IMG/VR virus record: IMGVR_UViG_3300030117_004212
Coordinates: 6,765-42,105 of that record
From: a virus
DNA length: 35,341 bases
Direction: 5' to 3' (one strand)
The first letter of the stretch is position 1, and every line of letters starts with the position of its first letter. Below are positions 13,101 through 35,161 of this stretch, one piece after another. A model generated the notes under the pieces. That model worked only from the letters and a program-made list of their open reading frames with translations. It searched no databases and was not told the DNA's origin. The position numbers and the translations under genes were made by a program.

Positions 13101-16100
13101 TATTAAAAGTGTATTTGGTCCAACTTTCTTTATAGATTCAATGCACATGGCGGCTGGTCAAAGTGAAATTAGCAATTATGCTAAATACTGTTGTATAACT
13201 TGGTCTGGATGTACAGCTGGTGTTGATGGTTCTAATGAAGAATCTAGTTGGAGTTATCCACCTTTGAAAACTTGGTTGACTGATTTTGGTGATATTTCAG
13301 GATTAGAACAAAAATTAAAGAAAAATTCCATTTGGTTTGATAATAATTTAATATCTACATCACCATTAGTAGAAAAAGATAAAGATCTTTTTAATAGAAG
13401 AGTTGACGGTTGGGTTGGTCCACAGCAAACACCTACCAGGCATAGTCCTTCAGATGCTGCTATTAGAAACGAAAACCATATTAATGGTTTAGAGGGTATA
13501 ATCACCACAACTAATACACATTCAATTGGACCAAGAAGATGGTTAAGCGGTATAGTGGGTGACGAGCAAGGCGTTGGAAGTAATACTAAGATATATTCTA
13601 ATGATGGAGAAGTTGGAAGACATTTTATGCACTTATCGTTTTTTGCCCCAGGTAAAGACCTACATGATGGGGATTGGAAAGATGATAGTCCAAGTCTTTT
13701 TGGGGGTGATTCATGGGCGGCTAATTTACAGGGAATATGGGGCGGTGGAGTTTTTACAGGTGGTTATAAAAATAAAAAATACGGTACTGTAAAGGTACAT
13801 CATCACATAATGATGGAAGGTAATCATGATGAAAATAATAACTACAAACCATTAGCTCCAAGACCTGGCGTTGGAGTTGGATACGACATGAAATATAGGG
13901 AATTACACGAGAGACAGTGGGATCCTACTTTCAACACTAATGGTGATCCAGATAATAAAATAAGAGATTTTATAAGAAATTTACAACCAGGTGCTAAATT
14001 TAGATTTAATAAAGTTTCAGATATAAATATTCAACTTAACACTACTGCCGACGGTTTTACAGGTGTATCAGCTATTACTATGGCTAGTGACATAAGCGAT
14101 GCTGGAATTATAGCAGGCATGTTAGTATTTGGCGAGGGAATTGTTGATGGGACAACGGTAACTTCTGAAAGTGGCACGACATTGAATTTATCGCAAAACG
14201 CAACTATAGCTGCTGCTACAACAACTCTTACATTTCTTCCTCCAGAAAACACTGACACCGAAGTTTATACTATTAAAAAAGTTGCCGTAAAGAAGTTATA
14301 TAACCATACTTCTTGGAGAAAAACATACAATAGATATCTTGATACTCATGGTTACAAGAAAAGAGCACAAGATATATTAAACTATTGGAGTGTAGAAACT
14401 ACAGCGTTAAGATACTTAGATAAGGTTAATAGCGTTGGAGTTAGTACTGATGATACTAGAAGAGATGAGTTAAAAGCAAAGATAGAACAGTTTGGAGCGG
14501 CTCATAATAGAAGAATCTGTTATATAATAGAGTTGGATAAAAATCCAACTGAGGCAACATTTAATCCACTTGAAGCTACAGCTGATATAATGACTGCTGA
14601 TTTTAATCAAAATAATTTCTGTGATATTGAATTTTTAGATCCAGTTAAAGATGTTTTATTATCTGATTTAAGTAAATTTCCAGCTATATGGGAGCTTGAT
14701 CCTAAAAAACAAGAAGTAGATCTAGATATATATTACGAAGCGAGTGGTAATATTCCAGTAAAAATAAATGATAAAACAAACGAACTGTTTGCTCCTATTG
14801 GTTGTAGGGTTGAAGTTTTAAACTCTAACAATGCTAGTTCTTCAATATTACAATCTTGGAATGGTTCTGTGGCTGTTTTTTATCCAGGATTTCAAAAATG
14901 GGGACTTGATGAAAATGGTGATCAGCAAGAAGAGATAAATTATTCAGGATTATCCCTTAAATTTATAAAAGAAGACGGTAGTTATACAGTTGCCGAGGTA
15001 AAAGAATACACCCCAAGTGGAAACACTCTTGTTGATTATGAAACTGAACTTGAAATAAAAGAAGATATTGGTGATAATATTTTATCAGGACTTTCTTGGT
15101 ATAATTGTTTTTCTTTTGGTAATGGTATTGAATCTAACAGAATTAGAGATGATTTTAATACAATATATATCGCGAATGGTGTTAAGGCGTCTACAGTAAC
15201 GCAAGGTACCTATGAAGAAGAGCATAGGCGTAATAGTTTAATATACTCTGGCGTGTATAATTCTAACTCTGGAACAAATGATCTTAATCAATTTATTGCT
15301 GGAGAAAAAATAACTAAAGATTTAAATCCAACATTTGGTAGTATTCAAAAATTATTTCAGAGAAGAATTAGTTTAATTGCTTTTTGTGAAGATAGAGTTG
15401 TAAGTATAGTATCTAATAAAGATACAATATATAATGCAGATGGAAATCCACAATTAGTAGCTAGCAACATGGTTCTTGGTGATGCAAATCCATTTTCAGG
15501 GAATTATGGTATATCTACAAATCCAGAATCTTTCGCGCAAGAATCATTTAGAAGTTACTTTACTGATAAACAAAGAGGAGCTGTTCTTAGGTTGTCAAAA
15601 GATGGATTAACGCCTATATCTAAAAACGGTATGCATGACTGGTTTAGAGATAATCTAACTCAATATAATTCTTTAATAGGTACTTATGATAGTTATAAAG
15701 AGGATTATAATCTAACGCTATCTAATAATAGTTTTAGTCAAAACCTTATATTAGATTCTTTTATTGAAACAGGTGGTGATCCAGTTTCTGTCACAGATGT
15801 TACTAATAGAATTTTAAACTATATTCCAACTGGAGATACTTTTTTGCAAGTATTTAATATATATGATGTTATTGATACTGCTCAAGTTGTAGATGGTAAT
15901 CCTAATCCTTTTAATTGGGACGCTTTTTTACCAGCTTCATATCTATTGACATCTTCAGCGGTAGTAACAAATCATATAGGAGCAGATCCAGCGTACGCTA
16001 TAAAAGCAGGAGAATTACAGGCTTATATGCCAGAGGTATTAAGTGTTAGCGCTGTTCCATCTACAACACTTACGTACGGTAGATATGCCACAAGTAATGC

Positions 16101-19100
16101 TAACGCTAACTCCCTTCCAAGTAGTGGAACTTACACTACAGGGACTTTTTGGGATCCAAATGCTATTAAGGACTTGTCTTGGGATCCCACAAAAACAATA
16201 GCAGAACACAAAGATTTAACACCTATTAGATGCACATTAACACCTGTTCACTATAATGATAATAATTTTGTTATGAGGAATCGTGCTGGTGATAGTAATA
16301 CTGCATATAAATACAATAATTGGGGAGATGTCGATTTAACTTCAGGTCGGAATATTTGCTATCCTTTAACGTGGAAAGTTGGACGAGGATTAGTAGCGGA
16401 AATACAAGCACATCAAATAGCTAGAGGTATTGTAATAGCTGGTACATACGATCAAAACGTTTCCGAAACTACGAATGGAAATTATGATTGGAATCCGGAT
16501 AACTATTATGCTTATAATCAAAATTTTCTACAAAGCCACGATGGGACGGGTTGTATTGTTTTTGATAGACCAAGTGTTAACTCGTATTTAAAACTTTCTA
16601 ATTTTGGAGAGACTGACGATAACGGTGAATTAACAGGAGATCTTAACGACGAATGGAGAGGCCATCTTTTAGATAGAGGTGATCCAGAGGCTGCGAATGT
16701 AAAGCATAGTAGTTTTTATAATGGAGATGAATTACTTATTGAGATGGACGTTATACATTATCAAACTAAATGTGGTGGTAGTTGGGACGTCACCGATCAG
16801 AATAAGCGGAAAGCCATGTATGGTAGAAACTATTGCCAACCTCAATTTGAATTTTATGATGGAGAAACGTTAATTGACGCGGATAAATTTGCACCAAGAG
16901 TAATTAGTGATGCTACGCATGGTGATGTTGAAATCACGAGTGAAGAATCACATTTAGATTGGCAAGATAATAGTGGAAATTGGTATTATGACAATCCAAA
17001 CAATCCATTTAGATCTCATAATTTCCATGATTATATAAACACGAATATTACAAGTACTAATGAAGGTTGGGGTAGTGGTGCAAGGATTATAAATAACATG
17101 AATCCATTTAATGGTATGATGAGCCAATCTGGAATTCAATCTAATGAGATTATTTGGGCAGATGGTCCTACTGTAACATTTACAATGACTTATGATGATG
17201 CTAATCTTTATAAATTAACTGCCGCAAATGCTGATACATATAATGTATCTTCTCAAAAGAAAAAATACGTTATAGCTATAAAATTTCAAGATCCAAACCA
17301 AACGGATTTAACACAAGAAATAACACCAGTAAAAGTTGTTGATGACCTTACAATACGGATAAGTAATATTGAACAAGGAGTTTACGAAGGATGGTTTAAC
17401 AATAGTTTTTCAAAGCGTTTACAAAGACCATTATGGACGATATCAAGACTTAAAATACGTAAAATAAAAGGTCTTATATCTGATGATTTTGAAGCGCCAG
17501 ATGAAGTAACAAGTGTAGAAGTTCCCGCTGTACCACCGGTGGATATTCCAGCTTGGACAGAGATTAATTATAATCACTTTACAGTACCAACAACAACGTG
17601 GACAATTACAGACGATGCTGTCTTAGGTACTAATGGTCATCCAACAATGGTTATTCACGAGGCTCAAACAGCCGCGGTTTTTGGTAGTAATAGAAGTGCC
17701 GTGGTACAAACTGGATATGCTTATAACGCTGTTGATCCTCTTTCTCAAGGTGATCCAATAAATTATTCTATACCAGAAGGAGATACTATTATTGAAGATA
17801 GTGGTGTATATAGTTACACAACGGAATGGTCTGGTACTTTAGCAACCACTCCTCCAACTGGAACACTTTTTGATAGAGCAAGCGCTGGAAACAATTCTTA
17901 TACTGGAACAGATGTTTTTCATGATAATCTTTATATAGAAATTGAATCTGGAGATATTGATTCCGCCACGGATATTCATCATGATTTAAGTAATGATCCA
18001 TTTGAAGTTAATAATTGGTATTTAGTTGATATTGAGTATGACAACTTTACGCCGGGAATTGATCCAGGTGAAGTTTTAGTATATGGAGTTGCTTCTGTAG
18101 GTGGTTTTATAGAGGGTGAAGAAATAGATATAAATGGTGTTGGTGAATATGCTGGAGATAATACAATTGCTCATTGTAAACTAATTCCAACTATAAGAAC
18201 TGAATACGGTAATTCTGGAGTTGGAGATAATAAAGAAGTATTGAGAGGTATATTTCAAGTGGCTGGTGATAGTTATTTAAATTCTAATAGTCAATTAAAT
18301 GATTTTATATTAAGAGTGGTTGGTTGTACTAATACAATACATATAACAAAAATAGTTACTAAGAAATTATCAGAACAACTACCTAGTTTTGGAACAGTGG
18401 CAGATTGGGATAGTAGTCAGGATCTAGCGGCTAATACACATTCGTTTAGTTCTAATAATATGTATTTTTCAGATGATAAGTTATGTTGGCAAATACCAGC
18501 AATATCAAATTATTATGAAAATGTATGGTCGCAAGATATTACATCTCCAACGGATATTTATAAAACTACTTGGAATTTAAGTTTTACAGTAAGTCAAAAT
18601 CCTAATACAAATAATTTTTCTGGAAGTATAAATGGTGTTGTTGGAGTTGATAATGATGGTTTTAGAGCTATGTCATTTAATGATATTCAACATGAAGGAA
18701 ATTATATGATCGAGTTTGAACTAGTTGACAGTCCTACCGTGGGTAATTGGAATATTTATAGAGAAGAAATAGGAACAACTGTTAATAATCAATCTCCTGT
18801 TTATTCAGATGCGGTAGTTGAAGATGGAACACTTAATTATTTTGCGGCTTCCTCTGGTAATAAAATACAGTTTGTAAATAATAGCACCCAACTAGTTGAT
18901 CAAGAATATGGAATTAGTAATATACAATTAATACCATTACAAACATCAATTTTTACAGGATCTATAGGGTCTTGGAATATTGTTGGATTTGTTCCTGTGC
19001 TTGCTTATATATATTTAGACAACGAAGAAAATAGATTTGTATTTAATAATTGTCCAATAACACAAGATCAAGAACAATTTATAAATCTGAATCAGCAATT

Positions 19101-20037
19101 AGCCCAAAACATAAAGCAAAACGAACAGTACAAAATAAGTTTTACACATGGTATAACGCAGGGTGAAATAGCTGTTTATTATTACAACAATCAAAACTAT
19201 GGATTTAAAATAACTGGTATAGATAGTAATTCTCCAGCTGAATTTAGCGAAATCGTAACAATAGGTCAAGATATTTGGAGTCCTACACAAGGTGTTATAC
19301 ATGGTATGGATTATGGTCCAAATGGTATGGATATTGCTGCTGATTATAAAAATACTTTTGTTGTTAGAGCTAACGTGCCTTTTGGGGAAGAGGTAAACGG
19401 TTATATAGATAATTTATCTATGGTGAAGGTTTACGTTAGCGCTGATACAGCTGACAAAACTATTACGTTTAACGAGGCTGTAAATGGATGGAGTAGTTTT
19501 AAAAGTTTCGTTCCAGAAAATGGTGTTAGTTTATCTAAAAAATACTTTACATTTAAAAACGGTGGTTTATGGCAGCATTACATACCTAAGGTAAATGGTG
19601 CAACACATTATAATTCTGGTGGTTTTGAAATAAAATTCACAGCGGAAGAAGCTGACAACTATAATGTATTTTATAATAACGCTGGTCATTGCAGTATACA
19701 GGGCGTTTTAAATCAAAATCCATCTGTAGTTAAAGCTTTCAATACTATAAATTATGAAGGTAGTCAAACTTATATAACTAAGCCTAATAATGAAAGTGAA
19801 ATTACAATAGATAACGCTCTCGCGTGGGGTAATGTTAGTGGTGATATATTAGGATGGAAGTGCTCTGAAATAAAGTCAGATTTAGATGTTGGAAGTGTGA
19901 TTGAATTTATTAAAAAAGAAGGTAAATGGTTTAACTATATAAAAGGATTAAGTGTTGCGCAGACTTTAGATACTAGTAAATTTAACGTTCAAGGTATAGG
20001 TGTTGCTGAAAACGTAACAAGTGTAGTATTTGTTTAA
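10171..20037 (+). CDS. Giant tail nozzle/stabilisation-type structural protein
   Basis: This 3288-residue virion protein starts with a motif set I recognise from marine phage structural proteins: GKMNKDLDERLIPNGQYRDA (12-31), WTDGINDPRKIN, RFAYRYKYKDGEFSAFSPF (342-360), and YQVGVVYSDKYGRETPVFT (about 564-582). This set continues through VDLDIYYEA (about 1516-1524) to FGSIQKLFQRR, RGAVLRLSKDGLTPIS and DYNLTL (about 1722-1850). The repeated strand pattern suggests a beta-propeller-like ring as in T7 gp12 nozzle. A calcium-loop-like DVDGDG lies at 180-185. Residues 1850-3090 are beta-rich with many W, N and D, probably several jelly-roll or lectin-like domains. A conserved-looking end carries FKSFVPENG (about 3110-3118) and GKWFNYIKG (about 3250-3258). 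No enzyme motif was found. Position after the adaptor supports a tail-tip or receptor-contacting role. The length is far above T7 gp12 (about 800). Confidence 0.8.
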   Translation: MPEIKNTFLQGKMNKDLDERLIPNGQYRDALNIEVSTSDSSGVGVVKNILGNHRLETLISQGFTCVGSIANEKTNTLYWFISSYGTDAILEHDVDKDETSFVLVDKYAGTSKSVLKFSGKIITGINIIDNLLLWTDGINDPRKINIDECKKGTIDITTHTQISFDKGSFHGITVDLITGDVDGDGNSILITPGTFPFNQVEDSGERVWYESKQLDALLGLDAVKPGFDSSLASGLEHKVKHYRGNEYLGIKNIVAFNDPNPNTSTGTYFYAVDNFTDLNIIHDAWDKDDLIFGNDIAIDIEERHVTVIKPKPLSAPTVKINHSESDNQTVNIPNLFETKFPRFAYRYKYKDGEFSAFSPFTHPVFNPKYPKDTSVSNTTNIFYNKDNAYTAEEPHNKAMVNSIHSVELTDFVTPHTPEDVVEIEILCKHEESPIIYSINAIKRSHKDWHAKGNHEGLGLSLGLDKSSVGTYEAKGSIAKGKYVISTENIYAALPANQLLRPWDNVPKKALAQEVTGNRIVYGNYVQNYDLGDDTEISVSYNDRINNINSFDTHGLQHVKSQRNYQVGVVYSDKYGRETPVFTSTGGAINIPWSDNDGNLNASKSLQLSASVINNFPEWVDSLKFFIKETSNQYYNLTMDRAWVTKSTYELDDSKGHIWISFPSSDRNKVAEDDYIILKKKIGTGEEQTQAENKFKIIDIQNNAPDAIKYQLVNYGQLSQVSTNNATNALTEEIFTNADKRIDKEVDTITLSADGWKTFSNSTSGLFGGIPLEEKESPPTGPFRTTGLYISWRRLDVNGQGVSSKKYKITGGIFDTNYTLKLATPITKIDADIAHFNGNSSASLPSLHTDLVVQIEKRELKDSENFSGKFFVKISKNQVTDLIDSGNPVSILDQFQVASKIGKCWYWQDDVAALATQSASYNQSDVSNYGLTNYGGYIADHTTDPDDHIHDIQNNNIGDTDANSVEMKLTDYHTPWAGIKSVFGPTFFIDSMHMAAGQSEISNYAKYCCITWSGCTAGVDGSNEESSWSYPPLKTWLTDFGDISGLEQKLKKNSIWFDNNLISTSPLVEKDKDLFNRRVDGWVGPQQTPTRHSPSDAAIRNENHINGLEGIITTTNTHSIGPRRWLSGIVGDEQGVGSNTKIYSNDGEVGRHFMHLSFFAPGKDLHDGDWKDDSPSLFGGDSWAANLQGIWGGGVFTGGYKNKKYGTVKVHHHIMMEGNHDENNNYKPLAPRPGVGVGYDMKYRELHERQWDPTFNTNGDPDNKIRDFIRNLQPGAKFRFNKVSDINIQLNTTADGFTGVSAITMASDISDAGIIAGMLVFGEGIVDGTTVTSESGTTLNLSQNATIAAATTTLTFLPPENTDTEVYTIKKVAVKKLYNHTSWRKTYNRYLDTHGYKKRAQDILNYWSVETTALRYLDKVNSVGVSTDDTRRDELKAKIEQFGAAHNRRICYIIELDKNPTEATFNPLEATADIMTADFNQNNFCDIEFLDPVKDVLLSDLSKFPAIWELDPKKQEVDLDIYYEASGNIPVKINDKTNELFAPIGCRVEVLNSNNASSSILQSWNGSVAVFYPGFQKWGLDENGDQQEEINYSGLSLKFIKEDGSYTVAEVKEYTPSGNTLVDYETELEIKEDIGDNILSGLSWYNCFSFGNGIESNRIRDDFNTIYIANGVKASTVTQGTYEEEHRRNSLIYSGVYNSNSGTNDLNQFIAGEKITKDLNPTFGSIQKLFQRRISLIAFCEDRVVSIVSNKDTIYNADGNPQLVASNMVLGDANPFSGNYGISTNPESFAQESFRSYFTDKQRGAVLRLSKDGLTPISKNGMHDWFRDNLTQYNSLIGTYDSYKEDYNLTLSNNSFSQNLILDSFIETGGDPVSVTDVTNRILNYIPTGDTFLQVFNIYDVIDTAQVVDGNPNPFNWDAFLPASYLLTSSAVVTNHIGADPAYAIKAGELQAYMPEVLSVSAVPSTTLTYGRYATSNANANSLPSSGTYTTGTFWDPNAIKDLSWDPTKTIAEHKDLTPIRCTLTPVHYNDNNFVMRNRAGDSNTAYKYNNWGDVDLTSGRNICYPLTWKVGRGLVAEIQAHQIARGIVIAGTYDQNVSETTNGNYDWNPDNYYAYNQNFLQSHDGTGCIVFDRPSVNSYLKLSNFGETDDNGELTGDLNDEWRGHLLDRGDPEAANVKHSSFYNGDELLIEMDVIHYQTKCGGSWDVTDQNKRKAMYGRNYCQPQFEFYDGETLIDADKFAPRVISDATHGDVEITSEESHLDWQDNSGNWYYDNPNNPFRSHNFHDYINTNITSTNEGWGSGARIINNMNPFNGMMSQSGIQSNEIIWADGPTVTFTMTYDDANLYKLTAANADTYNVSSQKKKYVIAIKFQDPNQTDLTQEITPVKVVDDLTIRISNIEQGVYEGWFNNSFSKRLQRPLWTISRLKIRKIKGLISDDFEAPDEVTSVEVPAVPPVDIPAWTEINYNHFTVPTTTWTITDDAVLGTNGHPTMVIHEAQTAAVFGSNRSAVVQTGYAYNAVDPLSQGDPINYSIPEGDTIIEDSGVYSYTTEWSGTLATTPPTGTLFDRASAGNNSYTGTDVFHDNLYIEIESGDIDSATDIHHDLSNDPFEVNNWYLVDIEYDNFTPGIDPGEVLVYGVASVGGFIEGEEIDINGVGEYAGDNTIAHCKLIPTIRTEYGNSGVGDNKEVLRGIFQVAGDSYLNSNSQLNDFILRVVGCTNTIHITKIVTKKLSEQLPSFGTVADWDSSQDLAANTHSFSSNNMYFSDDKLCWQIPAISNYYENVWSQDITSPTDIYKTTWNLSFTVSQNPNTNNFSGSINGVVGVDNDGFRAMSFNDIQHEGNYMIEFELVDSPTVGNWNIYREEIGTTVNNQSPVYSDAVVEDGTLNYFAASSGNKIQFVNNSTQLVDQEYGISNIQLIPLQTSIFTGSIGSWNIVGFVPVLAYIYLDNEENRFVFNNCPITQDQEQFINLNQQLAQNIKQNEQYKISFTHGITQGEIAVYYYNNQNYGFKITGIDSNSPAEFSEIVTIGQDIWSPTQGVIHGMDYGPNGMDIAADYKNTFVVRANVPFGEEVNGYIDNLSMVKVYVSADTADKTITFNEAVNGWSSFKSFVPENGVSLSKKYFTFKNGGLWQHYIPKVNGATHYNSGGFEIKFTAEEADNYNVFYNNAGHCSIQGVLNQNPSVVKAFNTINYEGSQTYITKPNNESEITIDNALAWGNVSGDILGWKCSEIKSDLDVGSVIEFIKKEGKWFNYIKGLSVAQTLDTSKFNVQGIGVAENVTSVVFV

Positions 20038-21702: not shown

Positions 21703-22119
21703 ATGAACAAAAAATATAACATTCGTTATATAGAAGCCAAAGACTTAGATATTATACGTAGTTGGTGGATTGAACGAAAAGAAGAACCTATTGAACTCGA
21801 TTTGTTACCACAAAATGGTTTAGGGGGTTTAATTATAGAAAACAAAGATATAATGATAGCAGCATGTTTTATTTATCTTACTAATTCAAAAATAGGATAT
21901 ATAGATCATTTAATATCTAATCCAGATTATAAAGGTAAAGGATTTTGGCATTATCCATTTATGTTAGCATGTTTTGAGGCTGCTAAAAATAGTGGCTGTG
22001 AAGAAGTTTGGGGTACATCATGTATTCCTAGCATTATAAAAAGGCTGAATAGATATGGATGTGAAATACTAGAACAACCTCATTACATTATATCTTATAA
22101 AAAAACAAATAATAAATAA
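21703..22119 (+). CDS. GNAT-fold N-acetyltransferase-like protein
   Basis: A 138-residue protein with the length and layout of a minimal GNAT domain. The N-terminal strand and helix (YNIRYIEAKDLDIIRSWWIE) are followed by strands GGLIIENKDIMIAACFIYLT and KIGYIDHLISNP. Then comes a motif A-like acetyl-CoA loop, NPDYKGKGFWHYP (about 78-90), which keeps the KGKG pyrophosphate-binding turn, then the helix FMLACFEAAKNSGC and strand EEVWGTS. A RLNRYGCEIL segment and a final strand (HYIISYKK) match the usual GNAT end. It would transfer an acetyl group from acetyl-CoA to an amine; the acceptor is unknown. Lying among virion genes, it may modify a virion or host protein, but this is speculation. The loop is slightly atypical, so activity is not assured. 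Confidence 0.75.
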   Translation: MNKKYNIRYIEAKDLDIIRSWWIERKEEPIELDLLPQNGLGGLIIENKDIMIAACFIYLTNSKIGYIDHLISNPDYKGKGFWHYPFMLACFEAAKNSGCEEVWGTSCIPSIIKRLNRYGCEILEQPHYIISYKKTNNK

Positions 22120-22125
22120 AAAATT

Positions 22126-23799
22126 ATGGGACGTAAATCTAAAAGAAAACAGCAAGGCGTGATGGAAGATATGCAGCAAATTGCGGCTGGTCAAGTAAGT
22201 GACTTTCAAAGTCAAATATCCGCTCAGCAAGCAAGTGTTGACGCTGCTATGGATGCTTATGCTGGTTTTGAATTTACAAATCCATTTGCTGGTTTACAAA
22301 ATCCGTACGCTGGAATACAAACTGATTTCACAAATCCCGCGGCAGGATTAACCAATGTTACAGAAGGTTTTACTAATGTAGCGGCGGGCGCTCAAAATGT
22401 AGCAGCTGGAATGACAAATTACGCCGCTGGAGCTCAAAACGTATTTGCTGGTGCTCAAAATATGTATGCTGGTTTGCAAAATCAGTTTGCTGGGATGGAA
22501 AATCTTTATGCTGGAATGGAAAACCAGTATGAGGGCATGGAAAACGTATTTGAAGATGCTACTATTGATACACGTGCCGCTGAGTTTCAAGCGCAACAAA
22601 CTGCACAACAACAAGCTAATATAATGCAGGGATTAAGAGGTGCGGCTGGAAGTAGTGGTATAGCCGCATTAGCCCAAACAATGGCTGGGCAAGGTCAATT
22701 AGCTGCTCAACAACAAGCTGCTGGTATTGGTCAACAAGAGAGACAGAACCAAATGATGCGAATGCAAGAAGCATCTAGAATTCAACAGCTACAAAGAGGT
22801 GAGGCCTCTAGATTAGCACAACAAGAAGCTGCTGGTGGTATGAGTATACAACAGCAAGAAAGAGCTGGAGCTGCTAGACTTCAAGAACAACAAGCAGCAG
22901 GTGCAATGACAGCCCAACAAATGAGAATGCAAGGAGCCGCGCAACAACAGCAATTGAGAATGCAGGGAGCAGCGGCATTACAAGGATTACAATTTCAAGG
23001 CGCTTCTCAGCAACAGCAATTACAAATACAAGGTGCTCAACAATTACAAAATCAACAAATTGCAGCAGCTCAACAATTACAAAACCAACAATTACAAGGT
23101 GACATGTGGGCTCAAGAACTGGGTGTAGCACAAACAAATCTAATGTTGGGTGCACAGGGTGATATAGACATGGCTATTGCTCAAGGAGAGGCAGGTGTTC
23201 AAGCTGGTCAATTCGGTCAATTAGGAACTATACTTGGTATGGAAATGGGGCAAATGGCTGGGTTACAAGAAGGATTACAAGGTGCTTATGGTAATTTATA
23301 TTCTAGTATGGGAATGGAAGCCGAAATGCATGGATCAAATGCTGCTAGTGGTGCTGGTATGTTTGGACAGGTTATTCAAGCTGGTGCTAGTATAAAAGTA
23401 GCAATGCTTTGTATTCCTAAAGGAACCAATATAGACTGCACTGATGGTAGTATAGCTATAGAAAATATTAAACCAGGCGATACTGTTATTGGTTACAACG
23501 GCAGTCCGGTGAAAGTACTACAAAAGCATGAATATTTAGAAGATCCTACAAAAGAAAGATTCTACAAGGTTAAATTTAATAATGGTTCTATTGTTGATCT
23601 TTGTGATATGCACAGGATTAAAGGCGAAAGAGCTAAAGATATAACAAAAGATATTGCAAGCAAAGAAGTTTACGGTGGTGTTGAATTTAGTTATGACTTA
23701 TTAACGGAAGACATGGGTTATAGAATAGATGGTATACCTGTTAATAGTATGATTGAAGAAATGGCAACTGCAATAGCTGAAAAAATAAATAATAAATAA
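22126..23799 (+). CDS. Repeat-rich ejection-like protein with C-terminal Hint domain
   Basis: This 557-residue protein has four parts. Residues 1-51 are a basic start and helix (MGRKSKRKQQG). Residues 52-145 hold about 13 heptads of the form N-x-aromatic/A-A-G-x-Q/T/E. Residues 207-327 are eleven gap-free 11-residue helical repeats rich in Q, A and G. Residues 429-557 are a Hint (intein/hedgehog-type) domain: C429 in MLCIPKGTNI, block A continuing IENIKPGDTVIGYNG, and a block B-like histidine H496 in DLCDMHRIKG. The C-terminal splicing residues (HN followed by C, S or T) are absent, so cleavage at C429 rather than splicing is expected. The Q/A-rich helices and position first in a three-gene set before a giant gene resemble T7 gp14 (internal core/ejection protein). 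The Hint call is solid; the gp14 analogy is inference. Confidence 0.75.
   Translation: MGRKSKRKQQGVMEDMQQIAAGQVSDFQSQISAQQASVDAAMDAYAGFEFTNPFAGLQNPYAGIQTDFTNPAAGLTNVTEGFTNVAAGAQNVAAGMTNYAAGAQNVFAGAQNMYAGLQNQFAGMENLYAGMENQYEGMENVFEDATIDTRAAEFQAQQTAQQQANIMQGLRGAAGSSGIAALAQTMAGQGQLAAQQQAAGIGQQERQNQMMRMQEASRIQQLQRGEASRLAQQEAAGGMSIQQQERAGAARLQEQQAAGAMTAQQMRMQGAAQQQQLRMQGAAALQGLQFQGASQQQQLQIQGAQQLQNQQIAAAQQLQNQQLQGDMWAQELGVAQTNLMLGAQGDIDMAIAQGEAGVQAGQFGQLGTILGMEMGQMAGLQEGLQGAYGNLYSSMGMEAEMHGSNAASGAGMFGQVIQAGASIKVAMLCIPKGTNIDCTDGSIAIENIKPGDTVIGYNGSPVKVLQKHEYLEDPTKERFYKVKFNNGSIVDLCDMHRIKGERAKDITKDIASKEVYGGVEFSYDLLTEDMGYRIDGIPVNSMIEEMATAIAEKINNK
22279..22560 (+). repeat. Degenerate 21-bp tandem repeats encoding heptads
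   Basis: Twelve full heptads and a partial one (residues 52-145) follow N-x-[YFA]-A-G-x-[QTE]. Their asparagines fall at 52, 59, then after a four-residue break (TDFT) at 70, 77, 84, and every seven residues to 140. Clear examples are NPFAGLQ, NVFAGAQ and NLYAGME. Positions 3 (often aromatic) and 6 (usually aliphatic) are spaced like a/d sites of a coiled coil, but every unit carries a glycine. Confidence 0.9.
22744..23106 (+). repeat. Eleven 33-bp units encoding hendecad helix repeats
   Basis: Residues 207-327 divide without gaps into 11-residue units such as RIQQLQRGEAS, SIQQQERAGAA, RLQEQQAAGAM, QQQQLRMQGAA, ALQGLQFQGAS and QLQNQQIAAAQ. Adjacent units are similar at DNA level (the 17 bases from 23035 recur at 23068). 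An 11-residue period makes either right-handed coiled coils or synuclein/apolipoprotein-like amphipathic helices. Confidence 0.9.
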
Positions 23800-25717: not shown

Positions 25718-28700
25718 ATGACCGAGCAAGAAATAAGAGCCAGAGTTCAACAAATGAAAGACGCTAATATTCCAAGAGAGCAAATCGAGGAATGGGTTAG
25801 GACTGTCCTGCGTGAATTAGAAGAGCAAAGACAGAAAACAGATTCTACGTGGCAAAATATTGGTACTCCAGCTCGAGAAAGTGTATTAAATCAAAATGTA
25901 AATGTAGTAGAAAAGGAAGAAGAAGAAGCTGAAATTAGTACTGGACCTGGTTCTAATGAGCCAATTAAAAATATTGCTGGATTTAATCTTGCTAGGGAAT
26001 ATTTTAAAGAAGGTATTATAAATCAAGATACTGGAAAACCTTGGACTACAGAAGAGGCTAAGGAAGATGTTAAAAGAAGAAGACAATTAAAACCAAGCAA
26101 GGATTATGGTTTAACAACTCAAACTTTTGCAACTGATGAAGGATCTATCGATATAAAAACAGTTGACAAAAAATCACTAAAACCAGTAGATGAAGAACGA
26201 ACTAGTATAAGACCTATTGGAGACGCTGAGTTGGCAATGGAAGAAGAAGAAGCTGAAACTTTTTACAACAATACATACGGTTCTTTAGGTTTTACATTTA
26301 CACAAGGACTCGGTGGTGATAGAATAAACGTGAAACATGAAAACGATCCAGGTGGCGGTGTAACTATATCTCACGATCAATGGACTACTTTAGGAAATCC
26401 TGCTTTAAAGGAAAAGTTTAATAATTATTTAAATCAATACGCTCCAAACCCATCTCAAGAACAGATAGATAAAACATGGAGATTACCTACCACTGTTGAT
26501 AATGTTATAAGTAAATCTAATAAAAAGCTCACGAATGATGAGAAAAACAAAATTAACGAGAAGGCTAAGAATGCTATAGATAGTAAAGGTAATCAACAAA
26601 AGCTTGCTGATTGGCTTGAAAAACAATCAAAAATATGGCGCTCTATTCCTTCGGTAGGTGGTACGCAGATTGCAAATAAAACTATTTCAAAAATGTTTGA
26701 TATAGCGTCTGGAGTATTTGATCAAAAAGGTGAGGCTACTTCAAAAGCTATGGAATATTTTGCTGATAAAACAAATCCAAAATCTCCTAATTATGATGAA
26801 AGATTTGCACAAAATTGGCCGTTAATGTCAAAAGAGATGCAACAGAAAGCTATTAGAGATAGAGCTTTGATGGAAAAAAAGAAAGAGTTGACTAAAAACG
26901 AATTGAAGAAAGGCGTTAACGAGTATTTAGAAAATTTACCGGGGATATGGGGTTCTGAGGAGAAAGATTACGCTGAAGCAAGAGCAAAAGAAAGGGAGAC
27001 AGAATTGACTGCTAACTATAAAGAGAACATGGCTAACTTTCAAAAAGTAAGAATACTTAACGAATCCTACAATCAAGAAGTACTTGATTATAATTCCCTA
27101 GCTAAAGATGTTTTGAAAAATCTTGAGAGTGGTCAAGCGGAGCAAGAGTTAAAAAGTTACGCAACTGCTCTTATGGCTCACTATCAACAAATGGTTGATA
27201 ATGGTGAAATTTCTGCAGAAGAAGCAAACTCTAAATACAAAGCAGAAGTACAAGAACGAATTAATATATTAGAAAGTGACGCTAAAGGCAAACTTAGCAT
27301 GTTAACACAGGCTGGAACGGCGTTAGAAGAAAAGAAAAATCTTATTAACGAACTACGTGAAGATTACAAAAAGGAATTTAAAGAACTAGAAGATATATCT
27401 GTAGCTAGAGATTATCTTGACAATATAAATAGTGGTACATTAAATTTATTAGCAACACTTGGTACTAGTACCGAAGATTTAGCAGGTTCATTTATTCATC
27501 TTTCTGGTTCTTTACAAAAAGGGGGTTTAGATTTAATAGCGCGTGGTATATCTCAATTAGATAGCGTTGATAAAGAAAATGTTAAAAACCATCCTTATTA
27601 TCAAATGTTTGATAAAATGACTGATGGTCAAATATATTTAGGGGATTACTTGAAAAAGACATCTGCTGAGCACAAGGAGCACCTAAAAGATTTGCCAAAA
27701 GGATGGAACAACGTGGCGGAAAAAATGTTAATTGGTGTTGCCGAAAACGCTCCTCATTTAGCTTTGGCTGCTTATACTGGAGGAGGTTCTATAGCTGCAA
27801 ATATGGCTGTCTTTGGTATATCTGGAACTGGCGATAAGCATTATGAAATGCTAAAAGAAGTAGAAAGAGGAGAGAGAGAATATACTACTACCCAAATGAT
27901 TTTAGCTCCACTAGCGCATGGTGCTTTTGAATCTATAACGATGATTCCAGAAATTTACATGATGCGTGGTGCTTTGAAAAATACCAACAAATTTGGTGGA
28001 CAAAAAATTGACGTTGCTAATAATCCTACTTTTTGGGGTAGCGTTGGTGCAAAGGTTTTAGGTTATGGAGGAACGCTAGGAAGAGGTATTGGCATGGAAC
28101 TCCCACAGGAGACAGTAACACAAATAGGACAAAATTGGACTAGAAAATACTTACAAGGTGAGGAGGGTGTACATTTGTCTGATGGTTTAGACGCTGATTT
28201 CTTTATAAAAGTTGTTGGCTCTACCGGTGTGTATAGCACGGCACCAACAGCAGTACAAGGAAGTTTATTACTAGCTAATGGAATGTATCTTGAATCAGAG
28301 CAAGTACAAATGATGAAAAACTCTGATAATTTAGTAGATATAACTAGTAGCATACATTATATTGAAAAGCAATTAGAGAAATTAAATCCTAATGATCCTA
28401 ATTTCAAGAAGCTAACTAGTCAAAAACAAGATTTAGAAACCAAACTTAAAGATGCAAATCTAGAAAGCGAAACTCTTATTGGTAAAATCTTAAATAGATT
28501 TGGAGCAATGAGTACTAATTCTGTTAATAAATTAAGAGAATTTTCAAAGCAACAATCTAAAATAAGAATTGAGGCTAACAAGATAAAAGCTGATAATGAT
28601 ACTTATACAACAACTGAAAAAAGAGAAAAACTTGAAAAACTTCAAGATCAATTTAATGCTATAGAAGATCAAAAAGCTAAAATTATTAATAATAAAAATA

Positions 28701-31700
28701 AGTATAAATTAGAGCATGGTAATAGAATACGTGATTTAGAAAAAAAGGCTCTTCAAAATTTAAAAGATAAAAACAAAGGTAAAGAACCTACACAGGAACA
28801 AATAGAAAAAGAAGCGGAAAGAATATTTGATGAAGGTAACTATGATTCAGATGCAAGAGTTGATGAAGCGAAGATAGCTGTAAATGATAATATAAAGAAA
28901 TTTGAAGCACAAGCTGTAATAGACAAAATAAATAAAATAGACCCAAGCTTACCCGTGGAACAGTTTGAGGCGAGTACATTAGAGGAGGCTATAGAGTGGT
29001 TAACGCAAAACTTAAAAGAAAAAGGTTTGTCTGAAACAGAGATAAACGAACAGCTTGAGCAGTTAACAGAAAAAAGTTGGAGCGCTAAAATAGGTGAGGG
29101 AGCTTCTGCCTATATATTTACGCCTAAGGCTAAAAACAAAGATGGAAAATACGTTGCTGATCCAAAGACTCATGAATTTGACAAACACCAAATATCTATA
29201 ATAAATACCGAAAGGCAAAAAGCCGGTGGAAACTGGACGGCTAGAGGTCACGAAATTTTACATGCTATAGTTTTTAAGGCGTTCAAAGCGTCCGGAAAAG
29301 CATTCAAGCCAATGGCTGAAGCAATGTTAGATAGATTAGAGCAAACAGATATTATGGGTCACGAATGGTTAATGGGTACTGTTAACGATAGGATTAAAAC
29401 CGGAAAAGTACTAACATCTGAAGTTGCTGGCGGTGGAGGTAGAATGGTAGCGTATATGGATGATAATGGAAACCCTACTGATGCTTATTATGAAGAAGTA
29501 GTAATGGCTATAGCTGACGGTATGCGATTAGGTACAATAAAAAGAACACCAGCTATTATTTCTAGAATACGAAAAGGACTTAAAAGAGGTTCTGATCAAG
29601 CTGGAATATCAAAAGATAATCAAGATTTAATGATTAATGATGCTCAAGACATGCTTGATATATTAGCAGATTATGGAACTAGTTTAAAAAAAGGGGAGGT
29701 ATCTAAGGGCGTAGAAAGTTTATTGAAAGGTAAATTTAAAATATCTCAAGATCTAGATGTTGCTCAACAGAAAAAAGATAATGAAGCTATGAGAGCCAAA
29801 GCTTCTATGGATATATTGTCTAAACCAGCTAGAGAAGCGTTAAACGCTGCTACGGACGCTGCTAGAGCCGTTAAAGCCGGGAGTGTTAATCAAGCGTATC
29901 AAGATCATATTGACGGCAAGATAGACTCATTTACCGCTTTGAATAGAATAGGAGAAGCTTATGAACCTATGGTAAATAGAGCTATAAAACACTTTGAAAA
30001 TGAAAATAATATAACGTTTGACGAGTTTGAAAGAGATACTTTTAAATTTGAATTCTTACATAGTTCTCGTGGCGTTAAGGGTTCTTTGTTTAGAGATCCT
30101 AATAAACCAAAAAAAGTAATATATACACCAGCGGAAGGTAGAACTCCAGCTAGATATTTAAATGGTTTACTGCCTCAACGTATGATTGAATTTAGTATAG
30201 CTGCCATACCTGATTTAGATGCAAAATATGCTACAGATGTGACGGCTTTAAAAGATATGGAAGCAGCAGAAACAGCTGAAATGACTATTGATCAAGAGGT
30301 TGAGGCTAAAAGAGATAAAAGAGATTTAAAAGATGTTGATGTAATTAATGACAAAGTTATTAGTAAAATTAAAAACGGTATATCATCTATTATTAAAAGA
30401 GGGTTAGCAGATCCTTTATTATCAGCAGAACAAATACTTGACAACATAACGTCTACTATAGAAAAGGAATATTCTAAAATCATCCAAAAACAAATGGGTG
30501 AAATAAATTCAGAAGGAGATAGGGTTATACCTAGTGAGGAATACAAAACTTTTCACGATACTAACTTCGAGACTATAGTTAAAGGATTACCTATAGTAAC
30601 TATTAAAAAGAAATATAGTAAACTTTTTAATATAACTAAATTAGCTAGGGAAGATGACAAAAAAGTAGATCCTATAACTGGAAAAGTTACATATCCTGGG
30701 AAAGGTATATTTGAAATAAAAGCCATTCCTAAGGCTAAATTTGGTAGTTATTTTTTAAATGGTAAACTAACAACATTAAGAGCTAGACAAAAAGCTTTAG
30801 CGGCAGAAATAGCACGATCTCTAGCTGAAGATGTCACATATGAGATTGCTAAAGATCCAGAGGTTATAGCTAAAATCCAAGACATGCAGCAGCTTCAAGG
30901 ATTTTCTTCTATGGTTGGTATTGAAAATGAAATTAGAGAAATAGCTAATCAATTAGATAAAAAGAAAACTGAACGAGCTAGTTTAGATGTTGTTAAGCTT
31001 TCTAAAGATATTGCTAATCTATCAGAGATAGAAAGAAAAAAGTTTTTTGATGGGTTAAAAGATTTGGGCGGTGCTTATGCTAAGTTTGGTAATTACGAAG
31101 ATGCCTTTAACGAGGTTTACGGTAAAGATGCTTTCGGCAAATACAGACAATCTATTATAGATGATATGACTGAGTATATGCGTATTTATGATAAGGCTAA
31201 AACAGCATATGATGTAGCTGAAAAAGTAATACCAAAAACATTTGAGGATTTTGTCACGGAAGAAATAGAAATTCTTAACGATACAAAAACATTTAGAAAC
31301 ATGTTGGGATTATCTAGAGGTAGTTTAGATTTTCAAGATTTAGATCAATTAGATAATGTAAGAAAGGCTATAAGAGAAATAGCTAAAGATAAAGATATAA
31401 GTATAGATGAAATTATAAGATTTCTTCCGTTTTTATATGGAACAGGTAGAATTGGTGGTACTTCCGCGGTGCAGAGTAAATATGGTTTAGAACGTAGAGA
31501 CGCTGATTATTGGTTTGATAAAATAGATAAAGAAAATAAAAAAGAAACTCCAAACGAAGCCAAAATACAAAAATGGAAGAAAGCAATAGAAGAGGGTAAA
31601 GAACCAGTTAAACATCCATATGGTATTTTCGAAAGTCAAGCTGATTTTCAAGATTTTGTTTTAAAAGGTTTGAAAGGATATGAAAAGGGTTATAAAAGTA

Positions 31701-34700
31701 AAATACCACCTAATGCAGCTCAAAACGTTGGGATTGTAAATAAAGATTTTAATTACGAAGACAATTTAGCGTCAGCAAAAAGAAATAAAAAGTTTTTGAA
31801 AAAACTAGCTGATGTAATGATAAAACTTGAGAAAAAAGGTATTATCACTAAAAATGATATTGGTATGGTACAAATGTCTTTAGGTAATGGTGGCATGAAA
31901 ACACCCTTAGCTACTGCCGCACAAGTTCAATATATGACAAATGATGGTAAAAAAACAAGTGGCACGCATATATACGAGCATTTAGTACCAAGAAGAGTAA
32001 TAAACATGGCTATGGTTAGTTATATAGCGGGAACTGTTAATGAAAATCAATTTACTAAATTATTAGATGATTTTGCCGTAGCTATTATACCTAGAAAACA
32101 GGCTGATATAGTTGATCAATATTATAAAGATTCTATGCCTGCTGATTGGATATTGGGTAAAGATATATTAAATAGATATTTTAATATAAAGACTTTTGGG
32201 GATATTAATATTCCTTTAACAGATTTTTCAACCGGTAAAATTAATGCTAAATCACAAGCCTTTGCGGACGCTGCTAGTTTATTAAAAAATCAAGTTAAAC
32301 AATCAAAAGACTTAAGTAAAGCGATTGAGCAATCTAGAACAATAAAAGAACCCCGTGGTATTACGGTATTAGATTTTGATGATACGTTGGCAACGAGTAA
32401 ATCTAAAGTTATTTCTACGTCGCCAGATGGTATTGTTAGAAAGCTAACGGCTGAAGAATTTGCTAAAGAAGGCGCTGATTTATTAGAGCAAGGGTGGAAA
32501 CATGATTTTTCTGAGTTCAATAAAGTTGTGGACGGAAAGATCGCTTCTTTATTCAACAAAGCAATGAAGCTTCAGGGTAAATTTGGGCCTGAGAACATGT
32601 TTGTATTGACAGCTAGACCACAAGAATCTGCTCAATCTATATATGACTTTTTAAAAGCTAATGGTTTAAATATACCATTAAAAAATATAACTGGTCTAGC
32701 TAATTCTACGCCAGAAGCAAAGGCTCTCTGGATTGCTGAAAAGGTTGGTGAGGGTTATAATGACTTTTATTTTGCTGATGATGCTTTACAAAACGTGCAA
32801 GCTGTTAAAAATATGTTAGATCAATTTGATGTTAAATCTAAAGTTCAACAAGCTAAAGTTAAGTTTAGTAAAGACATGAGCGATGACTTTAATAATATAC
32901 TAGAAGAAGTAACTGGCATTGATGCTGAGAAACGTTTTTCAGATGTTAAAGCTAGAAAACGTGGTGCTAGCAAAGGTAAGTTTAGATTTTTCATACCACC
33001 ATCACATGAGGATTTTGTAGGTTTACTTTATAACTTTATGGGCAAAGGTAGAAAAGGTGATCAACATAGAGACTTTTTCGAACAGGCTTTAGTTAGACCA
33101 TTGAATAGAGCGTATAGAGAGATAGATACAGCTAAGCAGGCTATAGCTAATGATTATAAATCTTTAAACAAACAATTTCCAGATGTTAAAAAGAAATTAA
33201 CAAAAGCTACTCCTGATGGTGATTTTAATTTTCAAGATGCTATAAGAGTATATTTGTGGAATAAGCATGGTTATACAATACCTGGCTTATCTGCAACAGA
33301 TCAAACTAAACTATCTGAATTAGTAATGAACGATCCTAATTTACAAGCTTACGCTGAAACATTGAACATAATATCTAAGCAGGAAGCTTATGTAGACCCA
33401 GGTCCAAACTGGGAAACTGGTAATATAAGAATAGATTTAGTAGATGCTACCGGTAGAGTTGGAAGGGCGGGTTACTTTGCTGAATTTAATGAAAACGCTG
33501 ATTTAATATTCTCACAAGAGAACTTAAACAAGATAGAAGCTGCTTATGGTAAAAACGTAAGAGAAGCATTAGAAGACATGCTTCATAGAATTAAGACTGG
33601 TGTTAATAGACCAAAAGGTGCTAGCGCTACGCCAAATATGTTTATGAACTGGTTAAATGCTTCTGTTTCTGGAGTTATGTTTTTTAATACTAGATCAGCG
33701 TTGTTACAGCAAATGTCTAATGTAAACTTTTTAAACTTTGCTGATAATAATATATATGCGGCGGCTAAAGCTTTTGCTAATCAACCTCAATACTGGAAAG
33801 ACTTTGCAATGATATTTAACTCAGACATGTTAAAGCAAAGACGTGGTGGATTACAAACAGATATTAACGGTGCTGAAATGGCAGAGGCTATTAAAAAAGC
33901 TAGACCAGGTAATTTGTTTGATCAAGTGGCTATTATAACTGGTAAAGCATTAAAACTAGGATTTTTACCTACACAAATTGGTGACAATATAGCTATTGCT
34001 ACTGGTGGCGCTCCTTTTTATAGGAACAGAGTTAATAAATATATTAAAGATGGTTTGAGCAAAAAAGAAGCTGAAGATAAAGCTTTTGTTGATTTACAGG
34101 ATATAACAAATGCTACTCAGCAGTCAGCAAGGCCTGATATGACTTCTGCACAACAAGCAGCGTGGGTGGGTAAATTAATCTTAAACTTTTTAAATACACC
34201 ATCTCAATATAATAGAATAATTAAAAAAGCTGGATCTGATATTAAGAATAGAAGAATTACCCCGCCTAATACCAATCAAATGCAAAGCGATATGTCTAAT
34301 ATGTCTAGAATATTGTATTACGGCGCTGCGCAAAACTTAATATTCTATGGTTTACAAACGGCATTATTTGCGGTTATGTTTGGGCTAGAAGATGACGACG
34401 AAGAGAAAAGAGCTGAACAGGTATTAAAGAAAAAAGAAAGAGTTATTAATGGTGCTATAGATACTATATTAAGGGGCTCTGGTATATACGGTGTTGCTGT
34501 TTCTACTATAAAAAACATGATAATAAAGTTTTTAGAACAAAGAGAAAAGAAATACAATAAAGATGAAAGTGCTGTATTAATGGAAGCATTGAATTTCTCA
34601 CCTGTTGTTGGTATTAGAGCTAGAAGTATTGTTAATGCTGAAAAAACCGTTAATTATAGTAAAGATATTATAAAAGAAATGAGTACGTTTGATATTGATA

Positions 34701-35161
34701 ATCCTATGTGGTCAGTTGTCACCAACTACGTTCAAGTAGCTGGATTTCCTGCGAACAGAATGTATCAAAAAACAATAAATCTTAGAAATGCTGCGGATAA
34801 TCAATATACAACTTTTCAAAGAGCAATGTTCTTTAGCGGTTATACTACTTGGAGTTTAAACCTTGGTGATACTCAAAAAATGAGGAAGATTAAAGAAACT
34901 GTTAAAGAAAAAAAGAAAGCAGCTTCTAGGGAAAAAGCTAAAAAGAAAAGAGAAGAAAAGAAAAAAGAAAAGATAAAAAAAATGACACCAACAGAAAAGT
35001 TGTTTAATCTTACAAAAAAACAACAAGTTGATAGTTTATTTAATCTTGGTCTTACAAAGTCCGAAATAAGAAGATTACAATACGAGAAAGATAGAGTTAA
35101 TAAAATATTACAAATGGGTGGTAAACGTGTAAAAAGAGAAAAGAAATATGGAAGTTTTTAA
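25718..35161 (+). CDS. Giant polyvalent ejection-like protein (zincin-like, HAD phosphatase)
   Basis: This 3147-residue protein is the last of three genes in the T7 gp14-gp15-gp16 place. It is mostly helical. Parts in order: N-terminal helix (MTEQEIRARVQQMKDANI); a hydrophobic alanine/glycine-rich stretch at about 668-720 (PHLALAAYTGGGSIAANMAV); coiled coil at about 880-1040; a zincin-like domain with HEILH (1178-1182) and a candidate third ligand E1259/E1260; a YEHLVPRR motif (2086-2093); and a HAD phosphatase module with DFDDT (2219-2223), the threonine of LTARP (2298) and DD (2354-2355). Then comes a long helical end typical of phage polyvalent proteins, with a hydrophobic helix at about 2865-2891 and a lysine-rich tract near 3071-3090. 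It may travel into the host with the DNA, cutting wall-linked or host proteins and treating nucleotide ends; these roles are inferred. T7 gp16 is about 1318 residues. Confidence 0.75.
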   Translation: MTEQEIRARVQQMKDANIPREQIEEWVRTVLRELEEQRQKTDSTWQNIGTPARESVLNQNVNVVEKEEEEAEISTGPGSNEPIKNIAGFNLAREYFKEGIINQDTGKPWTTEEAKEDVKRRRQLKPSKDYGLTTQTFATDEGSIDIKTVDKKSLKPVDEERTSIRPIGDAELAMEEEEAETFYNNTYGSLGFTFTQGLGGDRINVKHENDPGGGVTISHDQWTTLGNPALKEKFNNYLNQYAPNPSQEQIDKTWRLPTTVDNVISKSNKKLTNDEKNKINEKAKNAIDSKGNQQKLADWLEKQSKIWRSIPSVGGTQIANKTISKMFDIASGVFDQKGEATSKAMEYFADKTNPKSPNYDERFAQNWPLMSKEMQQKAIRDRALMEKKKELTKNELKKGVNEYLENLPGIWGSEEKDYAEARAKERETELTANYKENMANFQKVRILNESYNQEVLDYNSLAKDVLKNLESGQAEQELKSYATALMAHYQQMVDNGEISAEEANSKYKAEVQERINILESDAKGKLSMLTQAGTALEEKKNLINELREDYKKEFKELEDISVARDYLDNINSGTLNLLATLGTSTEDLAGSFIHLSGSLQKGGLDLIARGISQLDSVDKENVKNHPYYQMFDKMTDGQIYLGDYLKKTSAEHKEHLKDLPKGWNNVAEKMLIGVAENAPHLALAAYTGGGSIAANMAVFGISGTGDKHYEMLKEVERGEREYTTTQMILAPLAHGAFESITMIPEIYMMRGALKNTNKFGGQKIDVANNPTFWGSVGAKVLGYGGTLGRGIGMELPQETVTQIGQNWTRKYLQGEEGVHLSDGLDADFFIKVVGSTGVYSTAPTAVQGSLLLANGMYLESEQVQMMKNSDNLVDITSSIHYIEKQLEKLNPNDPNFKKLTSQKQDLETKLKDANLESETLIGKILNRFGAMSTNSVNKLREFSKQQSKIRIEANKIKADNDTYTTTEKREKLEKLQDQFNAIEDQKAKIINNKNKYKLEHGNRIRDLEKKALQNLKDKNKGKEPTQEQIEKEAERIFDEGNYDSDARVDEAKIAVNDNIKKFEAQAVIDKINKIDPSLPVEQFEASTLEEAIEWLTQNLKEKGLSETEINEQLEQLTEKSWSAKIGEGASAYIFTPKAKNKDGKYVADPKTHEFDKHQISIINTERQKAGGNWTARGHEILHAIVFKAFKASGKAFKPMAEAMLDRLEQTDIMGHEWLMGTVNDRIKTGKVLTSEVAGGGGRMVAYMDDNGNPTDAYYEEVVMAIADGMRLGTIKRTPAIISRIRKGLKRGSDQAGISKDNQDLMINDAQDMLDILADYGTSLKKGEVSKGVESLLKGKFKISQDLDVAQQKKDNEAMRAKASMDILSKPAREALNAATDAARAVKAGSVNQAYQDHIDGKIDSFTALNRIGEAYEPMVNRAIKHFENENNITFDEFERDTFKFEFLHSSRGVKGSLFRDPNKPKKVIYTPAEGRTPARYLNGLLPQRMIEFSIAAIPDLDAKYATDVTALKDMEAAETAEMTIDQEVEAKRDKRDLKDVDVINDKVISKIKNGISSIIKRGLADPLLSAEQILDNITSTIEKEYSKIIQKQMGEINSEGDRVIPSEEYKTFHDTNFETIVKGLPIVTIKKKYSKLFNITKLAREDDKKVDPITGKVTYPGKGIFEIKAIPKAKFGSYFLNGKLTTLRARQKALAAEIARSLAEDVTYEIAKDPEVIAKIQDMQQLQGFSSMVGIENEIREIANQLDKKKTERASLDVVKLSKDIANLSEIERKKFFDGLKDLGGAYAKFGNYEDAFNEVYGKDAFGKYRQSIIDDMTEYMRIYDKAKTAYDVAEKVIPKTFEDFVTEEIEILNDTKTFRNMLGLSRGSLDFQDLDQLDNVRKAIREIAKDKDISIDEIIRFLPFLYGTGRIGGTSAVQSKYGLERRDADYWFDKIDKENKKETPNEAKIQKWKKAIEEGKEPVKHPYGIFESQADFQDFVLKGLKGYEKGYKSKIPPNAAQNVGIVNKDFNYEDNLASAKRNKKFLKKLADVMIKLEKKGIITKNDIGMVQMSLGNGGMKTPLATAAQVQYMTNDGKKTSGTHIYEHLVPRRVINMAMVSYIAGTVNENQFTKLLDDFAVAIIPRKQADIVDQYYKDSMPADWILGKDILNRYFNIKTFGDINIPLTDFSTGKINAKSQAFADAASLLKNQVKQSKDLSKAIEQSRTIKEPRGITVLDFDDTLATSKSKVISTSPDGIVRKLTAEEFAKEGADLLEQGWKHDFSEFNKVVDGKIASLFNKAMKLQGKFGPENMFVLTARPQESAQSIYDFLKANGLNIPLKNITGLANSTPEAKALWIAEKVGEGYNDFYFADDALQNVQAVKNMLDQFDVKSKVQQAKVKFSKDMSDDFNNILEEVTGIDAEKRFSDVKARKRGASKGKFRFFIPPSHEDFVGLLYNFMGKGRKGDQHRDFFEQALVRPLNRAYREIDTAKQAIANDYKSLNKQFPDVKKKLTKATPDGDFNFQDAIRVYLWNKHGYTIPGLSATDQTKLSELVMNDPNLQAYAETLNIISKQEAYVDPGPNWETGNIRIDLVDATGRVGRAGYFAEFNENADLIFSQENLNKIEAAYGKNVREALEDMLHRIKTGVNRPKGASATPNMFMNWLNASVSGVMFFNTRSALLQQMSNVNFLNFADNNIYAAAKAFANQPQYWKDFAMIFNSDMLKQRRGGLQTDINGAEMAEAIKKARPGNLFDQVAIITGKALKLGFLPTQIGDNIAIATGGAPFYRNRVNKYIKDGLSKKEAEDKAFVDLQDITNATQQSARPDMTSAQQAAWVGKLILNFLNTPSQYNRIIKKAGSDIKNRRITPPNTNQMQSDMSNMSRILYYGAAQNLIFYGLQTALFAVMFGLEDDDEEKRAEQVLKKKERVINGAIDTILRGSGIYGVAVSTIKNMIIKFLEQREKKYNKDESAVLMEALNFSPVVGIRARSIVNAEKTVNYSKDIIKEMSTFDIDNPMWSVVTNYVQVAGFPANRMYQKTINLRNAADNQYTTFQRAMFFSGYTTWSLNLGDTQKMRKIKETVKEKKKAASREKAKKKREEKKKEKIKKMTPTEKLFNLTKKQQVDSLFNLGLTKSEIRRLQYEKDRVNKILQMGGKRVKREKKYGSF

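Follow-up and report, generated by a model that had tools for sequence, protein, structure and literature searches.

We think it probable that the gene described here encodes a polyvalent cargo protein packaged in the virion of a podovirus akin to flavobacterial phages, with an embedded zincin that is probably self-processing and a haloacid dehalogenase (HAD) phosphatase acting as effector. The gene occupies 25718..35161 on the + strand, where all the features given below also lie. It starts with ATG and comes last among the large genes of the structural module in the window, that is, the whole stretch of 35,341 nucleotides that was analysed (positions 6765-42105 of the 44157-base virus record IMGVR_UViG_3300030117_004212). 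The open reading frame yields the single chain of 3147 residues reported in the initial annotation. Relatives of flavobacterial phages appear to carry a putative ready-made protease and phosphatase in one virion protein, and at least 584 environmental viral stretches match its C-terminal core. Should these modules be active in the cell, their action would precede phage gene expression, at the time when host defences first strike.

We hypothesize that the N-terminal domain common to this protein and to other giant virion proteins is probably the part enabling packaging and ejection. The embedded gluzincin would most likely be a processing peptidase separating the modules downstream of it, either within the particle or once the protein has been ejected. 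Freed or made accessible in the host cytoplasm, the HAD phosphatase would act there as an effector, and its cap loop could be a socket by which effectors are swapped in and out.

Genomic context

The gene had been placed in a T7-like context, at the position of gp16. That context was rejected, since the relatives of the neighbouring genes belong to another lineage: terminase, portal, capsid and muzzle are akin to those of flavobacterial podoviruses and crassviruses. Terminase, portal, capsid and further structural genes match PHROG families. The portal shows 40-53% identity to those of the Manatee Spring podovirus, Maribacter phage Panino and Flavobacterium Elemovirus phages, and the structural module groups with flavobacterial podoviruses (Cellulophaga phi38:1 and phi18:3; Elemovirus). 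The giants of elemoF, phi38:1, phi19:3, phi13:2, phi18:3, Panino and the Manatee Spring phage have the same last-gene position, and in these cultured relatives they are mostly annotated as structural proteins. The virus is marine and infects bacteria, probably Bacteroidota.

The likeness to T7 gp16 is a position-type analogy alone, to which one family member (L085) adds an N-terminal peptidoglycan hydrolase, a transglycosylase SLT domain from aa 35 onward. There is no sequence match with gp16, and the structural module of the window is of the other lineage. One other giant, a member of alignment A7, contains a glycosyl hydrolase 108 (GH108) domain. As a whole, the window protein gave no useful match in Pfam and PHROG, and none at all in PHROG.

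The family and its C-terminal core

Scans of viral contigs gave 8 matching stretches, then at least 517 and then at least 584. The scan with at least 517 stretches was seeded on HAD motif-IV patterns and is biased for D2354/D2355; the rescan with at least 584 was seeded on the C-terminal core alone, as a HAD-independent seed. After removal of duplicates, the analysed set among the matches listed comprised 118 giants, near-complete and about 2000-3600 aa long. Across the family the HAD and the C-terminal core are strongly conserved, whereas the N-terminal two-thirds are divergent.

The core (about aa 2425-3040; 32990..34837) is alpha-helical, and its relatives were seen inside the family only: a profile search with its alignment against PDB sequences returned no relevant match, and none was found among the giants of cultured phages. 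With the core-only seed, complete giants with at least 45% core identity contain the HAD in 73/73 cases and HExxH in 69/73, among the matches listed. Several relatives in bacterial genome bins, with core identity under about 45%, have the core but no HAD, which indicates that the HAD module belongs to one large clade. In nine giants (L023, L070, L071, L080, L083, L086, L089, L091 and L097) the C-terminus is a Cys/His-rich tail (Pfam DUF5763), which probably binds metal.

Probable residence in the virion

An N-terminal virion domain (aa 677-1064; 27746..28909) was identified by iterative HMM searches and is common to the giant virion proteins of cultured flavobacterial phages. Before inclusion, its iterative profile matched elemoF gp18 (9.7e-12), phi38:1 gp101 (1.8e-9) and phi19:3 gp129 (1.6e-5), with zero matches against reversed sequences as control. 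The domain is also present in phi18:3 gp123, which is annotated as a structural protein on the basis of MS/MS proteomics. This homology supports the location proposed initially: from the domain in common with gp123, the window protein very likely resides in the virion.

The giants of Pervagoviridae and Pachyviridae (phi38:1 gp101, phi19:3 gp129, phi18:3 gp123) and Elemovirus gp18 are thus alike in syntenic position and N-terminal domain, and elemoF gp18 also has the zincin in common with the window giant. In these proteins, however, we observed neither a match to the C-terminal core nor a HAD signature. Unlike the window giant, those of phi38:1, phi19:3 and phi13:2 are without HExxH; phi19:3 and phi13:2 are near-identical kin of phi18:3, the source of the MS/MS annotation. 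As for delivery, the class of polyvalent proteins and the precedents of N4 and crassviruses lead us to infer that the protein would be ejected into the cell.

The zincin-like domain

The zincin-like metallopeptidase domain spans about aa 1131-1336 (29108..29725), as delimited by alignment A5, the AlphaFold secondary structure and an hhalign match of 94% to elemoF gp18. The HExxH announced at aa 1178-1182 is there as HEILH (29249..29263), conserved across the aligned relatives and the sole HExxH of the whole protein. In the A5 alignment of the protease region (n=77 among the matches listed), mean column identity is 14% and invariance is limited to four columns, H1178, E1179, H1182 and E1260; a set of 9 sequences adds I1162 to these. 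Of the two candidates put forward as third zinc ligand, E1259 falls away and E1260 (29495..29497) stands, being invariant in the 77 sequences and kept in 76/77 in a separate, independent alignment. The resulting HExxH...E pattern is a gluzincin signature.

Exactly one HExxH, at the same aligned position, occurs in 77/80 complete relatives among the matches listed, and the remaining 3/80 retain the zincin domain with altered sites. Four distinct giants with a recognisable zincin region (L038, L050, L064 and L157) have no HExxH, so the protease is not indispensable. Nevertheless, the catalytic residues are not lost in most homologs, an outcome that would have spoken against the initial proposal, although HExxH is gone from a few relatives and the HAD is missing in some distant ones.

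In the AlphaFold model (mean pLDDT 68) there are two strands, a helix bearing HExxH and, further on, one bearing E1260. In model numbering, HExxH falls in helix 124-139 and the later Glu in helix 206-222, the arrangement of the gluzincin motif, and the layout is close to that described for the peptidases of polyvalent proteins, with an HExxH helix and a later Glu helix after two strands (PMC5512222). A zincin is supported by the invariant HExxH...E and the matching secondary structure. In fold libraries the model at pLDDT 68 found no match: Foldseek returned no zincin, and, as VIA rechecks the Foldseek list only, this negative carries little weight. The region matched no zincin family in Pfam, and a profile search of its alignment against PDB sequences gave no relevant match. 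Apart from elemoF gp18, profile comparison pointed to the Manatee Spring giant, more weakly (38%); with the zincin profile of N4 vRNAP the motif helix alone aligns, at 12% probability. The Manatee Spring phage giant (L014, MW202828.1) has two HExxH sites, at aa 1615 and 2500.

The HAD phosphatase domain and its cap loop

The HAD phosphatase domain covers about aa 2205-2380 (32330..32857), and its delimitation is based on Pfam PF11019, fold and conservation. Motif I is DFDDT (D2219, D2221 and T2223; 32372..32386), the sole D-x-D-x-[TV] match in the 3147-aa chain. It is followed by T2298 of motif II (VLTARP; 32609..32611), K2335 of motif III (32720..32722) and D2354-D2355 of motif IV ('FADDA'; 32777..32782). 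All seven residues are invariant in 69 relatives among the matches listed, which confirms the signature read initially from DFDDT, T2298 and DD at 2354, and adds K2335 to it. Pfam PF11019 (DUF2608) matches 9/9 members, and the window protein scores above the family cut-off.

The fold comparison that had been suggested for this segment is also in agreement with a HAD. In VIA, nearly all listed rows for residues 20-190 of the model are HAD phosphatases (best Z 7.3, 126 aligned, rmsd 3.6 A), and the fold neighbours are class C and class B acid phosphatases and other HAD enzymes. For the model, Foldseek by itself yielded no E below 0.001, a profile search of the HAD alignment against PDB sequences returned no relevant match, and no NCBIfam model scored above its cut-off. 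By motifs I-IV and the Rossmann-like fold of the model, the domain is a member of the HAD superfamily. Its putative substrates are probably nucleotides or nucleic-acid ends, which are favoured by the enzymes of similar fold and by the PNK-like inserts described below, and possibly proteins.

Motifs I and II lie 77-79 residues apart in most members and 145-277 apart in about ten. The extra residues lie in the cap loop (about aa 2230-2243; 32405..32446), which is empty in the window protein; relatives have a kinase, an ART-like domain or some other insert there. A P-loop kinase sits inside the HAD cap in 7/118 giants among the matches listed (Pfam AAA_33 4e-12, Zeta_toxin 6e-12) and is absent from the window protein. 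The insert of L047 is ART-PolyVal-like, at E 0.003, under the family cut-off, and L083 and L087 carry other inserts. We considered whether the inserts were inteins and rejected this, their sequences being a P-loop kinase, an ART-like domain and others. To explain the kinase label on the core tree takes 7 changes, and well-supported branches force at least 4 of them, which indicates that gain, loss or recombination of the kinase is frequent. Judged from these sequences, the cap loop is an insertion site that has been used many times over, a new observation, and it illustrates effector-module exchange within a conserved enzyme.

The inserts bear on a sub-case of our explanation, fully compatible with it, in which the HAD belongs to an injected nucleic-acid end-healing unit of the PNK-phosphatase type, directed against host nucleases at entry. 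Fusions of PNK and HAD domains are common in phage RNA repair (PMC7824862), and the profile of the inserted kinase aligns with the T4 Pnkp kinase (hhalign 91.7%, 114 columns). However, the inserted kinase scores equally with zeta toxin, the family HAD aligns with the T4 Pnkp HAD over motif I only, and most members, including the window protein, have no kinase, the other inserts being unrelated. We regard this end-healing role as rather doubtful.

Standalone relatives of the inserted kinase occur in the Kyanoviridae phages HTVC008M and Melnitz-3 (L111, 2953-3615; L112, 2977-3645); the one of Melnitz-3 is located close downstream of the baseplate genes.

A border motif downstream of the zincin

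The short motif [KR][FY]S[KRL] is in excess at those borders between modules that lie downstream of the zincin and nowhere else, which is likewise a new observation. In the middle region between zincin and HAD we counted 50 copies against 10.7 expected (maximum 22 in 200 shuffles), found in several differing sequence contexts. The 60 residues preceding the HAD contain 24 (0.8 expected) and the HAD-to-core interval 37 (0.8 expected), although these HAD-flanking copies largely represent one homologous position and their counts are not independent. In contrast, the motif does not exceed expectation upstream of the zincin (9 observed, 14.4 expected), in the C-terminal core (6 observed, 12 expected) and inside both the zincin and the HAD. 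The window protein has a KYSK copy in the middle region (aa 1632-1635; 30611..30622) and a KFSK at the junction of HAD and C-terminal core (aa 2382-2385; 32861..32872).

From its distribution, the motif may be a protease cleavage site or a recombination seam. It is tempting to propose that the giant is a self-cutting injectable polyprotein, in which the zincin cuts at the downstream [KR][FY]S[KRL] borders and frees interchangeable effectors, with the HAD cap as a recombination plug-in site; we put this forward tentatively, as a possibility. The role of zincins in polyvalent proteins has hitherto been a suggestion only, and the motif supplies named candidate sites for the suggested processing. 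Not all giants have it: 44/118 among the matches listed contain no copy. As to the KFS motif being a trait of polyvalent proteins at large, N4 vRNAP has a single copy (KFSR). A tie between loss of HExxH and loss of the motif was unsupported, the motif being absent from 3/4 zincin-degenerate members and from 41/114 others. Two giants, L065 and L069, contain an extra module of several hundred aa between HAD and core, with KFSK-type motifs near both its ends.

The zincin of the same virion cargo could instead be an effector that cleaves host or wall-associated proteins, the giant itself not being processed. Such a role is listed as an alternative in PMC5512222, and the protease region diverges fast save for its catalytic residues, as an effector would. 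The restriction of the motif enrichment to the region downstream of the zincin, together with the location of the zincin, which in the members listed directly follows the N-terminal virion domain, argues against it, and we consider an effector zincin of this kind unlikely. Quite improbable is a third alternative, in which the modules are structural or assembly parts that retain catalytic residues to bind metal or for stability, and the protein serves mainly as an internal scaffold or as part of a channel, in the manner of crassvirus cargo or T7 gp16, with no effector role: the gene lies at the end of the structural operon, the phi18:3 homolog is a structural protein and the conserved helical core is large, but the HAD nucleophile, acid/base, T, K and DD and the zincin HExxH...E are fully conserved, and unrelated enzyme domains are exchanged at the HAD cap.

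Relation to giant virion proteins

A packaged cargo protein with processing zincin and HAD effector would belong with the polyvalent proteins, described in 2017 with N4 vRNAP as archetype (Iyer et al.; PMC5512222). These are likewise very large, multi-domain and delivered at entry, a zincin-like peptidase is their commonest domain, and ART, zeta-like kinase and lysozyme/transglycosylase partners are found there too. Unrelated activities in one chain, a trait of the class, are predicted here from the zincin and the HAD, and in relatives from the kinase, ART-like, SLT and GH108 domains. The main text of PMC5512222, in contrast, does not contain the terms 'phosphatase' or 'haloacid dehalogenase', while the HAD is nearly constant in the present family; nor did we find in that main text a description of domain insertion in a HAD cap or of the border motif.

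N4 gp50 (3500 aa) and its Schitoviridae relatives are also giant ejected virion proteins with an HExxH...E domain, whose residues H2228, E2229, H2232 and E2310 (gp50 numbering) are invariant in 10 relatives. The two giants differ in that gp50 is an RNA polymerase and Pfam finds no RNA polymerase domain in the window giant, which has a HAD, a domain not mentioned in the literature passages on gp50. Crassvirus cargo (crAss001 gp45-gp50, PMC10172136) resembles the window protein in consisting of large capsid-stored proteins of a virus with a muzzle-type tail. We found no sequence relation between this cargo and the window giant, in which, again, an RNA polymerase domain is absent.

Other genes of the record

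The neighbouring gene at 10171-20037 encodes a virion protein of 3288 aa with the C-terminal crassvirus muzzle domain (Pfam crAss_MUZ_C), about twice or more the length of the equivalents in cultured relatives. At 21703-22119 there is a 138-aa protein that is GNAT acetyltransferase-like by eye, for which Pfam gives no match. The adjacent gene in the virion cluster (22126-23799) codes for a 557-aa protein with a repeat-rich N-terminal part followed by a Hint-like C-terminal domain (Pfam Hint_2, E 1.9e-5, under the family cut-off). Genes judged by eye to be GroEL- and GroES-like are present upstream in the same virus record.
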